49,612 nt of DNA from Bdellovibrio sp. (GTDB lineage Bacteria > Bdellovibrionota > Bacteriovoracia > Bacteriovoracales > Bacteriovoracaceae), in the NCBI GenBank assembly GCA_016187935.1, contig JACPIU010000002.1, forward strand, positions 68,956 to 118,567, given 5' to 3'. This document shows positions 14,917 through 30,035 of the stretch, in pieces; position 1 is the stretch's first letter; every line of letters begins with the position of its first letter. The notes below the pieces were generated by a model. That model did no database searches, was not told where the DNA came from, and saw nothing but the letters and a program-made list of their open reading frames with translations. The translations under genes and the position numbers were made by a program.

Positions 14917-16008
14917 TTATTTTTCAATCAACAATTGCTGTTGGAAGTCGCTGGCACCTTCAACTGATTCTAAAGCTGTGTCTTTGGTAATAATACCCTT
15001 CTTGAATAGTTCCATAATGTGCTGTTCAAAGCTTTGGCTTCCGTTTCCTGATGGCCCACGTCCTTCTTGGATAATCTCCAAAATGCGCCCCAAGGGTTCT
15101 TCACCACGGATGCATTCTTTAACCCCGGGAGTCGTTAACATTATTTCAAGGGCCAGAACTATATGCTTGCCTTGGGCCCCTTTCAACATGCGCTGACCAA
15201 TCGTGGCATAAAGATTTTCTGACAAGCGCTTGCACACATCCGGTTGTTCTTCCGGTGGGAACATAGAAATAATTCGCCCGATTGTGGTAATGGCATTTGT
15301 AGTGTGCACCGTAGATAAAACCAAGTGACCGGTTTCAGCGGCCTTTAAGGCAATGCCCACCGTTTCAGGGTCACGCATTTCACCAATTAAAATAATGTCA
15401 GGGTCTTGGCGTAAGGCCGCTCGCAATCCGGCCTGGAAGCTTTCCGTATCTCGACCAACTTCTCGTTGTGTCAGTCGGGATTTTATTTGAGGATGAATGT
15501 ATTCAATAGGATCTTCGATAGTGATGATGTGGGCATGATTGAGATGATTAATATGATTAATCATGGCCGCCAAAGTGGTACTTTTTCCTGAACCGGTAGG
15601 TCCCGTGACTAAAATTAAACCGTATTGGTGGAGAGCAATTTCTCCAATGATAGGAGGGAGTTGAAGTTGCTCAATGGTGGGAATGGAATTCCGTACAATG
15701 CGCAAAATAATTCCCATCTTCTCATTGAAATGGAAAAAATTGAAACGCAGGCGGCATGTATCGGGAATGGTAAAACCTCCATCGAGCTCCTTAATATTAT
15801 GCAGCTGCGAAAAGGTCTGGTCATTTTGAAAAATAATTTTGCAAATATCTTCGATATCTTCTTTGGCAAAGGGTCTGGTTTGTACAGGAACCAGATCGCC
15901 ACGAATTCTCAGGCATGGCGATTCGCCCATTCTCAAATGGATATCGCTAGCATGATTTTGTATTGCTACTTGGACAAGGCCGATTAAATTTTTTAAAGTG
16001 AAAGCCAT
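14917..16008 (-). CDS. pilT: PilT-type retraction ATPase (twitching motility)
   Basis: The 363-residue secretion ATPase starts 'MAFTLKNLIGLVQVAIQNHASDIHLRMGESP', the PilT N-terminal domain. It carries a Walker A motif 'VTGPTGSGKST', the Asp box 'IITIEDPIEYIH', a Walker B region 'DPDIILIGEMRDPET' and the His box 'TGHLVLSTVHTTNA'. This set defines PilT/PilU retraction motors of type IV pili, which act at the inner-membrane pilus base. The start at 16008 (GGAG upstream) is preferred to an in-frame one at 16038 because the latter would run into the preceding gene. It lies 13 bases after the papain-like protease gene, so the two may share a transcript. No pilB, pilC or pilin gene is adjacent. Confidence 0.9.
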   Translation of the reverse strand: MAFTLKNLIGLVQVAIQNHASDIHLRMGESPCLRIRGDLVPVQTRPFAKEDIEDICKIIFQNDQTFSQLHNIKELDGGFTIPDTCRLRFNFFHFNEKMGIILRIVRNSIPTIEQLQLPPIIGEIALHQYGLILVTGPTGSGKSTTLAAMINHINHLNHAHIITIEDPIEYIHPQIKSRLTQREVGRDTESFQAGLRAALRQDPDIILIGEMRDPETVGIALKAAETGHLVLSTVHTTNAITTIGRIISMFPPEEQPDVCKRLSENLYATIGQRMLKGAQGKHIVLALEIMLTTPGVKECIRGEEPLGRILEIIQEGRGPSGNGSQSFEQHIMELFKKGIITKDTALESVEGASDFQQQLLIEK

Positions 16009-16021
16009 TTTGGTCTCCGAA

Positions 16022-17485
16022 CTAGTTCGAAATATCAAGTGATCGTAAGGCCATGAGAGCGCGAGGGATCAAATTTTTCTTGACCCATGCCTCTGTCAGA
16101 CAAGCGTGGCCTCCTGCTCCCCAACCTTCAGACCAACTATTGCTTACGATATAACACAGGGAACCTTCACTTTTATATTTTTCACCAAGCTTCATATGGC
16201 CGACAATAATAAGTGCATGTCCCGCAGCGTGAGAATCGGTGGCGCCTGCGAGATTGCTGTCGGCCAGAGTGACCAGTCCCTTCGTGGTGTAAAAGTTGGG
16301 AGTCAGAGTAAAGCCCGCCATGACAGGAATATTTTGTTCTAAGGTGCTTTTGATTTCTGCCTGTGAATTTAATGGATAGTATTCCTTGGCCTGGGCGACT
16401 CCGCGTCCGGTACAACTATTGCTCATCGGAATTTGGGTTTCATTTCCGGGTAAACTGGTGTCGACATAAGGACAATCTTGCTCTTTAGGAATGGATTTTC
16501 CTTTGGTATGAGTTTGTTCAAGGGCCTCTAAAACCCAAGAACCTTTGTCGCTGCACGGCCTGCTTGCACAATTTGGTTTGCTCACCCAATAGAAATATTG
16601 TTCTGATAAATCAACGTCAATACCATTTTGCGCGAGCAGAAGTTCGTGCGCCCGAACGCCCGCAAAGGCAGCGCAGGTTGGTCTTTTGGCCTGATCACGA
16701 ACAGGCACTTCGAAGGCGCGGGGAATAAGCCATACATCACTTGTATTGACATTGGCCGAGGAGAGGGAAATTTTTTTGCTTTTTTTAGCAAAACTCCCTT
16801 GAGGAGCACTGCTACCAAAACTCTGCACAGGAATGGTATTTTCCTTATATGTCTCAAGATTTTTTAGGAATTCCTGCTGTTTCTCTTTCCAGCGCGCATA
16901 AGTATCTTGCACTTGAGCACGCATACTCTTGAGGGTTTCCTGATTCTTGCGTTTTAAGTTGCTGAGATTTCTTAAGTATTGATCACGCAAACTTTCACCC
17001 GGTCTAGCAGCTTCCTTGTTATCATCTGAACTATTTTCAGCAGGAGCATTTTTGGCATCCGTTTTGGTTTTTTCCCGGGCCTTGGCCACAAGATCAGCAC
17101 CACCTTCACCATCATTTAATTTCAGTCCTTGGTCCTCTGCCACTTTTTCTCGATTCTTCTTGAGCATTTCTTGAATTTTTTGTTCACCCGCGGATAGTTT
17201 TTTGGGAGTTGGAGCGGGTGTCGGAGTTGGTTCTGGTTCTGGAGTTGGTTCAGGTTTAGAATCTGGTTTCACCGCCGTATCATCCGGTTTGACCGAAGGA
17301 GTATCGGGAGTATGAACGATGCCGGTTTCAGATTCCAGGGCACCCAAAACGGCCATCGTATTGGGACCAAAATCGGCCGTGACTTCGTTCTTGGCCGAAA
17401 CAGTTTTGGCCCAGACCATCGACGGAATTAAAAATAGGGTGATGATTATGACTACATTTTTCATACTTTTACCGAGCATATGCAT
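16022..17485 (-). CDS. secreted papain-like (C1) cysteine protease with long helical prodomain
   Basis: The 487-residue protein starts with a signal peptide (hydrophobic core 'VVIIITLFLIPSMVWA'). A proline/glutamate/threonine stretch near residues 65-95 ('KPEPTPEPEPTPTPAP') and a charged helical region to about 210 follow. The C-terminal half is a C1-type peptidase: Gln and Cys271 in 'VRDQAKRPTCAAFAG', His423 in 'AAGHALIIVGH' and Asn449 in 'SNSWSEGWGAGG'. The usual CGSCW around the catalytic cysteine is here PTCAAF. At least six further cysteines in the catalytic domain suggest disulfides and an extracytoplasmic place. The ATG at 17485 has GAGAGG at five bases. In a predator it could digest prey proteins, which is inference only. 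Confidence 0.85.
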   Translation of the reverse strand: MHMLGKSMKNVVIIITLFLIPSMVWAKTVSAKNEVTADFGPNTMAVLGALESETGIVHTPDTPSVKPDDTAVKPDSKPEPTPEPEPTPTPAPTPKKLSAGEQKIQEMLKKNREKVAEDQGLKLNDGEGGADLVAKAREKTKTDAKNAPAENSSDDNKEAARPGESLRDQYLRNLSNLKRKNQETLKSMRAQVQDTYARWKEKQQEFLKNLETYKENTIPVQSFGSSAPQGSFAKKSKKISLSSANVNTSDVWLIPRAFEVPVRDQAKRPTCAAFAGVRAHELLLAQNGIDVDLSEQYFYWVSKPNCASRPCSDKGSWVLEALEQTHTKGKSIPKEQDCPYVDTSLPGNETQIPMSNSCTGRGVAQAKEYYPLNSQAEIKSTLEQNIPVMAGFTLTPNFYTTKGLVTLADSNLAGATDSHAAGHALIIVGHMKLGEKYKSEGSLCYIVSNSWSEGWGAGGHACLTEAWVKKNLIPRALMALRSLDISN

Positions 17486-24952: not shown

Positions 24953-26116
24953 TTGAGAATAGGGTTTGATGCTAAGAGGGCATTTCATAATTTTCGTGGA
25001 CTTGGCAATTATTCAAGAACTTTGCTGGACGGTCTATCTAAATATTTCCCGGAAAATGAATACTTTTTGTTCACTCCGCCATTTAAGGACGAGAGGGCGA
25101 TTGCTTTTATGCGAACTCATGCCGCTCTTAAAGTGGTTGCCCCGGAAGGTATCTTGAAAACTGTACCGTCACTCTGGAGAAGTGTTCTTCTTGCCAATGA
25201 ATTAAAGCATCGCGATCTCGATATATATCATGGTCTGAGCCACGAGCTGCCGCCTTTTTTTCATATGCGTACTAAGTGTGTCGTGACCATGCATGATCTT
25301 ATTTTTATAAGATATCCCGAGTTTTTTCCCTGGATCGACCGAAAGATATATCTGCGTAAATTCAATCATGCTGTAAATCGGGCCGATATAGTATTGGCCA
25401 TCTGCGAGCAGACCAAGTGTGATTTAATTGATCTTCTTAAAACGCCGGAGAAAAAAATTGTTGTCGCCTATCAAAGTTGTGATCCGATTTTTTACGCCGA
25501 TTATTCTTCTGCTGAAAACAAGGAAGTGGTACGCAGATACGGGGTCCAAAATGATTTTATCCTCTCTGTCGGGGCGCTTGAAGAGAGAAAGAATCAATTG
25601 GGTTTGATTGAGGCCTTTAAATCTTTGCGTGAAGACCTTGATCTGGTCTTTGTAGGGAAGGGAAAAGATTATAAGAAATTAATGCAAGCAAAGCTTCATG
25701 CATATGGTTTAGAAAAACGTACCCATTTTTTAGAGAATCTTCAACATCAGGAATTGCCGCATTTTTATCAAGCAGCCGCGCTATTGGCCTATCCTTCTTT
25801 TTTTGAAGGTTTTGGTCTTCCCATCGTCGAAGCATTGTTCTCAGGCTGTCCGGTGGTGACTTCTGAAGGTTCTTGTTTTCCTGAAGCGGGAGGGCCTAAA
25901 ACTTTGTATATCAATCCCAACAAGGCCGACGATTTGGCCCAGGCCATGCAGCGGGTCTTAAGTAATGCCGAGCTTAGACAGGAAATGATTCAGAACGGCC
26001 GTGATTATGTCCAACGATTTCATCAGGCCAAGACGACGCAACATTTAATGGGCCTTTATCGTGGGGTTGGTTTGCGTGCGGGAGTTACTTCTTCGTTGTC
26101 ACTAAATTCAAATTAA
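24953..26116 (+). CDS. GT4-family glycosyltransferase
   Basis: The 387-residue GT-B enzyme opens 'MRIGFDAKRAFHNFRGLGNYSRTLL', a start shared by family 4 transferases. It has the donor-side motifs 'ILSVGALEERKNQLGLIEAF' and 'PSFFEGFGLPIVEALFSGCPVVTS' (the E-x7-E segment). It should add a hexose or similar sugar to an envelope polysaccharide; sugar and acceptor are unknown. The start codon is TTG with AAGGAAGGA directly before it, which decides the start together with the family N-terminus. The 3' end overlaps the convergent exbD gene by 32 nt. Confidence 0.85.
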   Translation: MRIGFDAKRAFHNFRGLGNYSRTLLDGLSKYFPENEYFLFTPPFKDERAIAFMRTHAALKVVAPEGILKTVPSLWRSVLLANELKHRDLDIYHGLSHELPPFFHMRTKCVVTMHDLIFIRYPEFFPWIDRKIYLRKFNHAVNRADIVLAICEQTKCDLIDLLKTPEKKIVVAYQSCDPIFYADYSSAENKEVVRRYGVQNDFILSVGALEERKNQLGLIEAFKSLREDLDLVFVGKGKDYKKLMQAKLHAYGLEKRTHFLENLQHQELPHFYQAAALLAYPSFFEGFGLPIVEALFSGCPVVTSEGSCFPEAGGPKTLYINPNKADDLAQAMQRVLSNAELRQEMIQNGRDYVQRFHQAKTTQHLMGLYRGVGLRAGVTSSLSLNSN

Positions 26117-26477
26117 ACAGTTCTTGCGTTTTGAGTAAGTCAAACACTTTGATAATGCGTTCATAGCGTACATTTTTATCTATTCGAACTTCTACCGGTG
26201 TGGTCTTATCGGACACCAAGCGTAGCTCGCTTTCCATTTGGGTGAAATCCAAGCGCTTTCCGTTTAAGGCCAGTTCTTCTTCCGACAGCTCAACTAAGAG
26301 TTGTTTTTGGTTAGCTTCTTTGGTAGCGCCGGTTTCTGCTTTGGGTAAATTAAGCAGCAGGGCCCATTCTTCCTTTTTAAAAACAGTGCTGACCAAAAAG
26401 AAAATAAGCAGCAAAAAGATAAGATCTATCATGGGCGTTAAGTCTGGTACAAAAGGTTCGCGGCTGCGTTTCTTCAT
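26085..26477 (-). CDS. exbD: ExbD/TolR-family proton-channel subunit
   Basis: This 130-residue protein has a short cytoplasmic N-terminus and a single membrane helix with the family's proton-carrying aspartate, Asp18, in 'PDLTPMIDLIFLLLIFFLVST'. A periplasmic domain follows ('QLLVELSEEELALNGKRLDF', 'PVEVRIDKNVRYERIIKVFDLLK'). It forms a proton-driven motor with the upstream ExbB-like protein, 13 bases away in the same operon. No TonB or TolA gene is next to it, so the energised partner is unknown. The 3' end overlaps the convergent GT4 gene. Confidence 0.88.
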   Translation of the reverse strand: MKKRSREPFVPDLTPMIDLIFLLLIFFLVSTVFKKEEWALLLNLPKAETGATKEANQKQLLVELSEEELALNGKRLDFTQMESELRLVSDKTTPVEVRIDKNVRYERIIKVFDLLKTQELFNLNLVTTKK

Positions 26478-26490
26478 ATCATCTCACAAA

Positions 26491-27012
26491 TTAAAGAAGC
26501 CGATTGGTTAGTTCACGCTCCAAATGGACTTCCAAACGATCCAGAACACCGATTAAGTAGGTATGACCAATGTAATGCGGAATTGCAACGATCAGCCCGC
26601 CCACCGTTGTGATAAGCGCCAGAGAAAGTCCTTCGGCAAATTGAGAAGGATTTGACATGCCCGTTACGGCGATAAGCTTAAAGGCCATATAGACGCCCAC
26701 AACGGTGCCTAAAAGTCCGAGCAAGGGTGAGATGGCGGCAATCAAGCGGATAGCGTTGATACCCTTTTCCGCTTGGGCCATGTAGGTATTGAGTTCCTGT
26801 TTTGCCAACTGGACTTTACTCTCAGGATCTCGTTCCTTTCCTTGATTAAGATTAATGCGATCAGTAATCGTTTGTGCTGTGACGGCGATGGATTTTTCAC
26901 AAGAATAAAGTGTGAATAATTTGAAGGCCATCAGACCAAGCCCGATGATATTTAAAAATAGGAGCACATACATGATGGCCCCACCTTCCTGGATGTAAAC
27001 CCATAAATTCAT
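26491..27012 (-). CDS. exbB: ExbB/TolQ-family proton-channel subunit
   Basis: The 173-residue protein has three membrane helices: one near the N-terminus ('AIMYVLLFLNIIGLGLMAFKLF') and two in the C-terminal half ('LIAAISPLLGLLGTVVGVYMAFKLI' and 'GLSLALITTVGGLIVAIPHYIG'). These carry the MotA/TolQ/ExbB signature G-L-L-G-T-V-x-G. It builds the pentameric stator around ExbD. The ATG at 27012 has AAGGAAG at six bases and is preferred to an in-frame GTG at 27018. It is short for ExbB (usually about 200-240) because the loop between helices 1 and 2 is small, as in minimal members. Confidence 0.88.
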   Translation of the reverse strand: MNLWVYIQEGGAIMYVLLFLNIIGLGLMAFKLFTLYSCEKSIAVTAQTITDRINLNQGKERDPESKVQLAKQELNTYMAQAEKGINAIRLIAAISPLLGLLGTVVGVYMAFKLIAVTGMSNPSQFAEGLSLALITTVGGLIVAIPHYIGHTYLIGVLDRLEVHLERELTNRLL

Positions 27013-27157
27013 AATCACTTCCTTAACGTTATTAAATCTTCACTCTATTGTGCTTTACCGTTTCTTGTCCGGCAACATGTTTGATCAATTCTAGTCTTTT
27101 CAATAGAAGAGACATTTGAGTATTATGTGCCTCTTAAATATACAGCGGGAGAGATGT

Positions 27158-28942
27158 TTGAAATTTCCAAAAGACTTGATTTTTTGTTTGGTGTTTAGCT
27201 TAAGCCTCCATAGTTGTACCACAGCACGACCCATCACCCCCAAGACCGGCCCTTGGTACTTCAAGCACGATCAAGGGGCTTCCCTTCGAACTAAAGTTGA
27301 GCGAAGTGGGCAGAAGTATGGTGTGGCGACGCAAGGTTCTGGTGCTACGGAAGCTTCTCGCCGAATGTTTGAATTAGGTGGCAATGCTGCAGATGCGGCC
27401 ACCGCAGCTTCTTTTGCCATCTCTGTTGAACGTCCACAGTCAACCGGTTTGGGCGGAGGCGGTTTTCTACTTTACTATCATCCTTCATTTAAGAAAGGTC
27501 CGGTAGCTTTTGATTTTCGTGAAATGGCCCCTGCCAAATCCCATGCGAAAATGTTTCTGGATGATAAGGGGGAGGTGATTCCCGATAAATCATTGACTGG
27601 AATACATTCAGTCGGAGTGCCTGGACTAGTTTCGGGCATCATCAAGTTTCATCGCCGTTTTGGTGTCCTGCCTCTTTCTGTCGTGATGGCGCCGGCCATT
27701 GCCATGGCCGAAAACGGTATTTCGGTCTATCCAGAATTGGCCGAAGCGATCGAGTCAGAGGCGGAACGCTTACTTAAGTTTCCGGCTTCAAAAGAAATTT
27801 TTCTTCCAGGCGGACAGGGCCTTAAAGTAGGCCAGATTTTAATACAGAAAGATTTGGCCAACACTTTGAGGGACATTTCGGAAAAGGGAGAGGCCGGTTT
27901 TTATTCGGGTAGCGTGGGCAGGAAAATTGCGAAATATTCAAAGAGTTTAGGCCAACAAATTAGCTTAAACGATTTGCAGAGTTATCTTGTAAAAGAACGG
28001 GTACCGGTATCGGCGCAATTTGGTGATTATACTCTCTATTCCATGGCCCCCCCTTCTTCAGGTGGGGTCCATATCGCGCAAATTATTGGCATGTCTCATG
28101 GCTTGTTAAGGCCAGAAAAGGGGCCGATGGATGAGCATAATATTCATGTGGTCGCCAGTGCCATGCAGATGGCCTTTTATGATCGGGCCCGATATCTCGG
28201 TGATCCTGATTTTGTAAAGGTGCCACTGGATACTTTAATCAGTCAAAATTATTTGCAGGATTTGCAAGGGCGGATAAAAGGTGATGTCGCCCGTAAGGGT
28301 GACGATTTTGCCGTGTGGCCGGATGCCTTTCACTTCAAGGGCCCTAAAGAGTCTGACCAAACTACTCACTTTTCAATTTTAACCAAAGATGGCGAAGCTG
28401 TTGTTTCGACTCAAACGATCAATGGGCATTTTGGTAGTGCCATTGTTGTTCCGGGCACAGGAGTAGTTTTGAATAATGAGATGGATGATTTTGCCACCAA
28501 AGTGGGGGCCTCTAATCTCTTTGGCGCGATCGGTGGTGAGAACAATCTTCCTGCCGCAAAAAAGCGTCCCTTAAGTTCCATGTCACCAACTTTGGTTTTC
28601 AAGAAGAACCGGCCGATTTTGGCCTTAGGTACACCATCAGGAACACGCATTCTGACTTGTGTCGCCCAGACAGTCATCAACCGCCTTATTTACGGCATGG
28701 ATCTCTATGACTCTGTTGCTTTACTGCGCTATCATCAACAATGGATGCCGGATAAACTTTTTGTCGAAGCACGTGGTTTGCCAGATCGTCAACATCAGGC
28801 CCTGACGGCCATGGGGCACATCATTGAGACAAAGGATATCGGTTGTCGCATTCAGGCGGTAGAATTAATCGGTGATATGAATGATAGAAAAATTAATGCG
28901 GTTTCAGACCCGCGTGGAGAAGGATCTTCATATGCGTTATAG
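27158..28942 (+). CDS. ggt: gamma-glutamyltransferase, predicted lipoprotein
   Basis: This is a complete GGT of about 594 residues. The autocatalytic and nucleophilic threonine is Thr402 in 'DQTTHFSILTKDGEAVV', and substrate-binding segments 'GTGVVLNNEMDDF' and 'RPLSSMSPTLV' are intact. N-terminal motifs 'GSGATEASRRMFELGGNAADA' and 'STGLGGGGFLLYY' fit too. It cleaves or transfers gamma-glutamyl groups, for example from glutathione. The N-terminus has a lipobox-like 'LSLHSC', so it may be a lipoprotein. TTG 27158 (GGGAGAG upstream) gives the cleanest signal peptide; ATG 27125 or TTG 27116 are alternatives. The 3' end overlaps the next gene by 11 nt. Confidence 0.9.
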   Translation: MKFPKDLIFCLVFSLSLHSCTTARPITPKTGPWYFKHDQGASLRTKVERSGQKYGVATQGSGATEASRRMFELGGNAADAATAASFAISVERPQSTGLGGGGFLLYYHPSFKKGPVAFDFREMAPAKSHAKMFLDDKGEVIPDKSLTGIHSVGVPGLVSGIIKFHRRFGVLPLSVVMAPAIAMAENGISVYPELAEAIESEAERLLKFPASKEIFLPGGQGLKVGQILIQKDLANTLRDISEKGEAGFYSGSVGRKIAKYSKSLGQQISLNDLQSYLVKERVPVSAQFGDYTLYSMAPPSSGGVHIAQIIGMSHGLLRPEKGPMDEHNIHVVASAMQMAFYDRARYLGDPDFVKVPLDTLISQNYLQDLQGRIKGDVARKGDDFAVWPDAFHFKGPKESDQTTHFSILTKDGEAVVSTQTINGHFGSAIVVPGTGVVLNNEMDDFATKVGASNLFGAIGGENNLPAAKKRPLSSMSPTLVFKKNRPILALGTPSGTRILTCVAQTVINRLIYGMDLYDSVALLRYHQQWMPDKLFVEARGLPDRQHQALTAMGHIIETKDIGCRIQAVELIGDMNDRKINAVSDPRGEGSSYAL

Positions 28943-30035
28943 TCGCTTTTCAGCTGCCGGTATGACCCTGGTTGAAGTGATGATCGCTTCGTCGATTGGC
29001 GTGGGAATTTTCCTTTTTTTAAATAATGCTATGATCAAATTACAGAAGGCGCAAACGCGCTTTGAAAGAAGAGGGGAAGTCGAGGAGATCAAATGGATTT
29101 TAAAACGACACCTCTCCGATATGAGGGCGTATGAGGAGAACCCTTCCGATGAAGTACCAACTCGCGCCAACCAAAGTAATTTTTATTATTTTCAAAACCG
29201 TCGCTCACCGCTCTTGCCTTTGACTTCAACTGAAAAAGAAATGCAATCAGTGAAGAAAGATTTCAAATGTCCTGGTGACATGCCTGGTTGTCGGGTGGCG
29301 GCCTTTGATTATAAAGGGCAGCATCTTGTCCTTGAGAGTTTGAAGCTTCCCCGTCCTGGACTGGTGCTGGCCACCATCGGTTTTGAAACTCCTGATGATA
29401 AGATCACTCGCAGTTTTCTACCCGAACTCAAAGTGCAATTGGTGGATCAAAATGATGATTCTGAAGTCAGAGTGGTCCCCAAAATGTTTTATGTTAATCA
29501 GGAAGGTGGTGCTCAATTTGGTACCTCCGGCCCGACCGAAGCCGGGACTTCTTCGCCGGTAGCAACTTTAGTCGATCCCGTTTCGCGTGCCAATTGTTAT
29601 GCTAAATTCGTGCAGGCCTATCCGGAACAGAAGGAGCTTGCGAAGGAACTTTGTATCAAGGCGAAAAATTCCGCACCGGCAGATTGCTTCATTCGCATGA
29701 AGAAAGAATTTTCTGTGGATGATATTCTGGCGATTATTACTTGTTCACAGGCGGTCAATTCCATGCCGATCGAGTGTTTTAAAACCGCTAAAACCGCTGT
29801 TTCTATCGGGGATGACGGCCATGCTTTATTGTGTAGTGGTGCTGCCAGTTTAGAGCCAATTAATTGCTATAAGCTTCTTAAAGAAAAGGGTGCCATCAAT
29901 TTACCCGAAATGCTGGAACTTAAGATCTGTGCCCGCGCCTTCGACATTTCCCCCGCGGAGTGTCTGCTCAAGCTCAAGGCCATGGACGAAGTTTCGCTCC
30001 AGAATGCTCTTTTCCTTTGTCCTCACCACAAATAA
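28932..30035 (+). CDS. prepilin-like protein with C-terminal cysteine-paired helical repeats
   Basis: The 367-residue protein starts with a class III prepilin signal: 'MRYSRFSAAG' then 'MTLVEVMIASSIGVGIFLFLNN', cleavage after Gly10 and Glu at position 5 of the mature form. This fits minor pilins of the PilW/GspJ kind. The middle (residues ~30-210) has pseudopilin character with a C-P-G-D-M-P-G-C segment. Residues 222-363 form five repeats of about 30 residues. Cysteines lie at 222, 241, 252, 271, 282, 301, 312, 333, 344 and 363. Start ATG 28932 gives the signal at once; the longer in-frame ORF start at 28881 would bury it. It overlaps the ggt stop, so the two are coupled. It should be assembled into a pilus or pseudopilus tip. 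Confidence 0.8.
   Translation: MRYSRFSAAGMTLVEVMIASSIGVGIFLFLNNAMIKLQKAQTRFERRGEVEEIKWILKRHLSDMRAYEENPSDEVPTRANQSNFYYFQNRRSPLLPLTSTEKEMQSVKKDFKCPGDMPGCRVAAFDYKGQHLVLESLKLPRPGLVLATIGFETPDDKITRSFLPELKVQLVDQNDDSEVRVVPKMFYVNQEGGAQFGTSGPTEAGTSSPVATLVDPVSRANCYAKFVQAYPEQKELAKELCIKAKNSAPADCFIRMKKEFSVDDILAIITCSQAVNSMPIECFKTAKTAVSIGDDGHALLCSGAASLEPINCYKLLKEKGAINLPEMLELKICARAFDISPAECLLKLKAMDEVSLQNALFLCPHHK
29595..30020 (+). repeat. coding repeat: five ~30-residue units with two cysteines each
   Basis: First cysteine of each unit is at residue 222, 252, 282, 312 and 344. Second cysteine is at 241, 271, 301, 333 and 363. The spacing is C-x18-C-x10-C, with two extra residues in unit four. Units share the pattern A/S-x-x-C-F/Y ... 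I/L-C-x-x-A-x-x-x-x-P. The coordinates run from the first to the last repeat cysteine codon. Confidence 0.85.

Follow-up and report, generated by a model that had tools for sequence, protein, structure and literature searches.

A prepilin-like protein with a C-terminal array of cysteine-spaced repeats in the Bdellovibrionota

The fusion gene and its product

The window analysed here, a stretch of 49,612 nucleotides from contig JACPIU010000002.1 of a Bdellovibrio sp. genome, carries a gene (28932..30035; ATG at 28932, stop codon at 30033-30035) for a protein of 367 amino acids, in which a prepilin is fused to a tandem repeat. Orthologues are present in five further genomes. It lies on the forward strand, as do its neighbour ggt and the parts of the gene located below. 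Directly upstream we found ggt (27116..28942), coding for gamma-glutamyltranspeptidase (Pfam G_glu_transpept, E 2e-144) from a putative start codon. An earlier sequence-only reading of this DNA had pointed out that the two genes overlap; with the ggt stop codon ending at 28942 the overlap is 11 nt. An alternative in-frame ATG at 28881 would give the pilin a longer leader. The start at 28932 is preferred, since GGAGAAGGA, a ribosome-binding-like site, is located about 7 nt ahead of it and the overlap with ggt is comparably short in relatives.

The protein has the architecture of modular pilins, with a pilin module, a linker and an extra C-terminal module. It begins with a prepilin leader (MRYSRFSAAG; 28932..28961), for which cleavage is expected after G10. 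The class III prepilin signal proposed by the sequence-only reading is indeed present, running across the expected cleavage site as G10/M11-T-L-V-E15 into a hydrophobic helix, and it is conserved across the six orthologues. The Pfam N_methyl motif matches the window protein with 16.3 bits, under the cut-off of 21.2, and was matched in all six proteins at E values up to 1 (best 2.3e-4); the copy of G286 has the canonical G/FSLVE. The pilin module (residues 11-190; 28962..29501) comprises the hydrophobic N-helix, with glutamate at mature position 5, and a pilin-like region with the invariant cysteines C113 and C120. Beyond the short N_methyl motif, Pfam and PDB searches returned no family or structure match for the middle region of the pilin. 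A linker rich in Gly, Ser and Thr follows (residues 191-217; 29502..29582). An AlphaFold model of the whole protein, from an alignment of two sequences only, reached a pLDDT of 34.

Twelve cysteines are found in the protein, at positions 113, 120, 222, 241, 252, 271, 282, 301, 312, 333, 344 and 363. The sequence-only reading had counted ten, which is correct for the tail, and its ten positions are exact on the translation; the pair C113/C120 belongs to the pilin part. The tail consists of five tandem units with periods of 30, 30, 30 and 32 residues. Within a unit, 18 residues separate the first cysteine (A) from the second (B), and 10 more lead to the next A, so that the proposed C-x18-C-x10-C pattern with its 30-residue period holds in general; unit 4, with C-x20-C, departs from it and makes the period once 32. 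Likewise, the motifs C-F/Y and C-x-x-A, claimed for every unit, each occur in four of the five. Six pairs of tail cysteines are exactly 30 residues apart, a number that never rose above 5 in 100,000 random placements of ten cysteines over the 162-residue tail, although the best of all periods from 8 to 59 was taken in each trial. Units 1 (C222, C241; 29595..29684) and 2 (C252, C271; 29685..29774) are delimited by cysteine spacing, profile and orthologue alignment, and unit 3 (C282, C301; 29775..29864) by profile matches and orthologue alignment. Cysteine spacing and orthologue alignment define unit 4 (C312, C333; 32 residues; 29865..29960) and unit 5 (C344, C363; 29961..30032), which ends the protein with LCPHHK.

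Conservation and genomic setting

The pilin-repeat fusion is present in six genomes (G000, G002, G034, G171, G284 and G286) from three genera of one family. Both parts together were matched in no other of the 369 genomes of the phylum that were searched. The contig of G002 (MEPP01000001, Bdellovibrionales bacterium GWA2_49_15) is, by matching coordinates, the same contig as that of locus L009; in G284 and G286 the fusion gene is split over two contigs, and the halves were joined at their overlap for the alignment. The four orthologues from outside the window's genus are 35-40% identical to the window protein. Among the six, the mean pairwise identity is 0.57 for the N-helix, 0.43 for the pilin body and likewise for the repeats, while the linker, with 0.32, is the least conserved part. 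All twelve cysteines are invariant. Of 150 positions 30 are invariant, and the probability that the ten tail cysteines would all be among them by chance is about 3e-8. For the most similar pair of orthologues, G000 and G002, dN/dS is about 0.05 in the pilin part and about 0.03 in the repeats; since dS is near saturation, these values are taken only as a sign of strong purifying selection.

In all six genomes the fusion gene directly follows ggt, overlapping it or nearly so, and the outer neighbours of the pair differ among them. The tie between the two genes is real as a gene arrangement. In the window's family ggt is found in 100 of 129 genomes, and at 25 other ggt loci inspected no prepilin-like ORF lies behind it, with just 302 and 2 bases available downstream at two of these loci. 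Near the pair, the window contains glycosyltransferase-like and ExbB/ExbD (TolQ/TolR)-like genes (24953-27018), named from their ORFs. Such neighbours also occur in G171 and were not seen in the stretch of G034 inspected.

The fusion pilin gene sits apart from the other pilus genes. A prepilin peptidase is present in the same genome (three Peptidase_A24 hits above cut-off), together with four DsbA-family hits. N_methyl marks nine places, and four prepilins, the fusion pilin included, lie outside two clusters: one on contig C9, which we take for a gsp-like cluster that includes several prepilins, and one on contig C19, which we take for a PilT/PilC/PilA-like cluster, both judged from their ORFs. 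A PilT-like ATPase of the T2SSE family is encoded in the window at 14917-16038.

Contig C8 of this genome holds two further prepilin-type ORFs, about 1.6 kb apart. One (L105:2125-5127, reverse strand) codes for 1000 amino acids with 29 cysteines. It has an N_methyl match below the cut-off (16.9 bits), YadA head repeats (PF05658, E 1.6e-17) and, at its C terminus, a Peptidase_S74 chaperone (PF13884, E 1.4e-5). The other (L105:6713-9046, forward strand) codes for 778 amino acids with 18 cysteines and has no domain except N_methyl (20.6 bits, cut-off 21.2). MAT fibres, described from Bdellovibrio in the same phylum, are surface fibres with exchangeable adhesive tips (PMC10769870), and the 1000-residue product is perhaps a pilin-anchored, MAT-like trimeric fibre. 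The MAT fibres themselves are trimeric and beta-helical, and the word pilin is absent from the main text of PMC10769870.

The repeat family in the phylum

The sequence-only reading had tentatively linked a motif of the type LCSGA...AP..C to predatory bacteria, and among the results that would speak against its proposal it had named the lack of any repeat family in a profile search. A family does exist, and the motif is present in this phylum, to which the predatory bacteria belong. Of 291 genomes sampled from the phylum, 33 gave a match to a profile of eight units (A2), pilin units among them. With a 31-row unit profile, 10 of 66 genomes in family f6 had the repeat, as did 17 of 129 genomes in the window's own family, one doubtful match in G207 included. 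The distribution within the phylum is patchy. These profiles were built from single units, as overlapping two-unit windows were misaligned in MAFFT. The doubtful match (L090, G207:C53) was not counted as a family member, for the ORF taken at this locus has a different cysteine pattern: it carries another cysteine-rich repeat, like 'CPKPSVLTALSSLDPKTQAEQYKMCINSLIPRTKNCC', unlike the C-x16-20-C-x10-C family.

Beyond the fusion pilins, most matches are small ORFs of about 120-355 amino acids with signal-peptide-like N-termini and three to nine copies of the repeat, and these free proteins of relatives appear to be secreted. In one of them (L020) 'CANKAYQGNFNLDQAVLLCSGATSNAPID' is repeated nearly unchanged. 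The subfamily with L017, L018 and L026 has one extra cysteine about 11-20 residues ahead of the first unit, which gives an odd number of cysteines; this cysteine may stay unbonded, form a bridge between two copies or find its partner in the first unit.

Homology between the pilin tails and the free proteins was assessed with a profile free of pilin sequences, made from 63 units of 24 small free proteins. It matched the six fusion tails with 20.8-35.7 bits and the tail of the window protein with 32.5 bits. In comparison, 1000 shuffles of the G000 tail with every cysteine left in place gave no score above 10.3 bits, so that the tail is homologous to the free proteins beyond the shared spacing of cysteines. 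In the reverse search, a profile made from all six fusion pilins picked up several free proteins by way of its tail.

The repeat unit had no usable match in Pfam, NCBIfam, PHROGs or the PDB, where different subsets of pilins, unit profile and free proteins were run per library, and searches of viral contigs and plasmids yielded no relatives. Two hits were judged spurious. ANKLE2_3rd (Pfam) scored 27.4 bits against a cut-off of 27 for one free repeat protein, as a sum of short matches of which no single stretch passes, and FDH3_beta (NCBIfam) scored 19.8 bits against a cut-off of 240. The units here span 29-32 residues, in contrast to the 36 residues of the Sel1-like repeats of Hcp proteins, and Pfam scans of the pilins and of representative free proteins gave no Sel1 match, nor did any PDB chain match. 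As far as we searched, in these libraries and in the open-licence literature, the repeat family seems undescribed; it may have been described elsewhere.

Cysteine pairing and the possible role of the repeat array

The sequence-only reading had proposed helical hairpins, each perhaps closed by a disulfide. An AlphaFold model of the repeat domain, built from two sequences only and of low confidence (pLDDT 44), shows five pairs of helices, ten in all. Within a pair, A lies in the leading helix and B at, or close to, the end of the trailing one, which hints at two helices per repeat unit. In a parse of 41 arrays, B is the last cysteine and an A comes before the first B (35/41 and 40/41). The exceptions are five arrays in which an extra cysteine precedes the first A by 11-12 residues, and L160, which was judged by eye; the parse also shortened the long arrays of L030 and L031. 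In arrays without the extra upstream cysteine only a bond between A and B of the same unit gives every cysteine of the array a partner, and one disulfide per unit is therefore the most likely arrangement. In the subfamily with the extra cysteine this parity argument does not discriminate.

The same protein, with the same helical repeats, could instead have its disulfides between the B cysteine of one unit and the A cysteine of the next (C-x10-C). We regard this as possible but doubtful. HcpB and HcpC, with Sel1-like repeats, and Csep1P form alpha/alpha arrays with one disulfide per hairpin and serve us as working analogues; the bonded pairs of Csep1P are C-x8-C, at a position conserved with HcpB and HcpC (PMC12904459). 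As these proteins bond the short gap, the pairing within the unit is something we infer. Moreover, C-x10-C is the most constant gap of the family, whereas the other gap varies more. However, bonding between units would leave two conserved cysteines unpaired in every array that lacks the extra upstream one.

On balance, we think it probable that the protein is a modular minor pilin, or a pseudopilin, that displays an array of disulfide-stapled alpha-hairpins as a ligand-binding tip. The N-terminal pilin module would be processed by prepilin peptidase and enter a type IV filament, and five alpha-helical hairpin units would be presented past the linker. In each unit, one disulfide would join the first cysteine, close to where helix A begins, to the second, where helix B ends. 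With these bonds made in the periplasm, the array may become a rigid rod or arc and act as the functional module, which would bind an extracellular ligand at or near the tip of the filament. Candidate ligands are matrix components and, on another cell, surface proteins or glycans. Two findings count against this reading: the gene follows ggt and sits apart from other pilus genes, and the middle region matched no pilin family beyond the N_methyl motif.

The filament could also be a secretion pseudopilus, since the genome has the gsp-like cluster with its several prepilins. The protein would then be a type II secretion pseudopilin, for instance an adaptor for cargo or at the tip, perhaps serving the co-encoded GGT. 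The pairing with ggt, kept in six of six genomes while the outer neighbours differ, is in line with this role, which we nevertheless consider unlikely. Given the frequency of ggt in the family and the other ggt loci inspected, GGT needs no pilin, and several GGT N-termini resemble lipoprotein-like signals, as judged from their sequences. In addition, the two genes may be neighbours for no other reason than coupling to a promoter already in place.

It is improbable that the cysteines serve metal binding, redox reactions or cross-links between molecules instead of structural disulfides. Regularly spaced cysteines in the helical repeats of CagY from Helicobacter pylori can cross-link copies of this protein (PMC2581425). 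In our repeats, however, the motifs CXXC and CXXCH are absent, the protein bears a signal for export and its genome encodes DsbA-family proteins, and the even number of cysteines per array fits intramolecular pairs. A decaying orphan prepilin with accidental repeats, to which the low N_methyl score might point, is hardly credible in view of the low dN/dS, the cysteines invariant across three genera and the profile-level homology to other proteins.

The preferred reading, a modular pilin with a stapled hairpin array, has precedents. Pilins onto which a binding module has been grafted occur widely, and they are expected to sit at the filament tip; PilB and PilC of Streptococcus sanguinis, CofB and TcpB share an N-terminal pilin module, a short linker and a bulky functional module at the C terminus (PMC8179133). 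In those pilins the module is a vWA, lectin or beta domain, whereas here it is a tandem repeat of paired cysteines for which no relative was found in Pfam or the PDB. Hence modular pilins are already known, and what is new, as far as we searched, is the repeat module itself. CagY offers a further parallel, with helical tandem repeats and regular cysteines on the filament of a secretion system (PMC2581425). In contrast to our protein, it is of the VirB10 type and has a main motif of 38-39 residues in variable copy number, and we found no evidence of homology to the repeat described here.

Overall, our data link a striking cysteine pattern to a repeat family that is patchy and apparently uncurated, in a phylum noted for its predators, with one clear case in which the repeat module has been grafted onto a pilin. 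Structurally, the repeat may be of interest as a small scaffold stapled by disulfides. More tentatively, the family could be an exchangeable scaffold, exported as free arrays in many Bdellovibrionota and grafted onto a pilin in one lineage, by which other cells, such as prey, are recognised at the tips of pili. Type IV pili of B. bacteriovorus have been reported to play a role in prey recognition and attachment (PMC4237445), which makes the repeat module a concrete and testable candidate for a ligand-binder at the tip.
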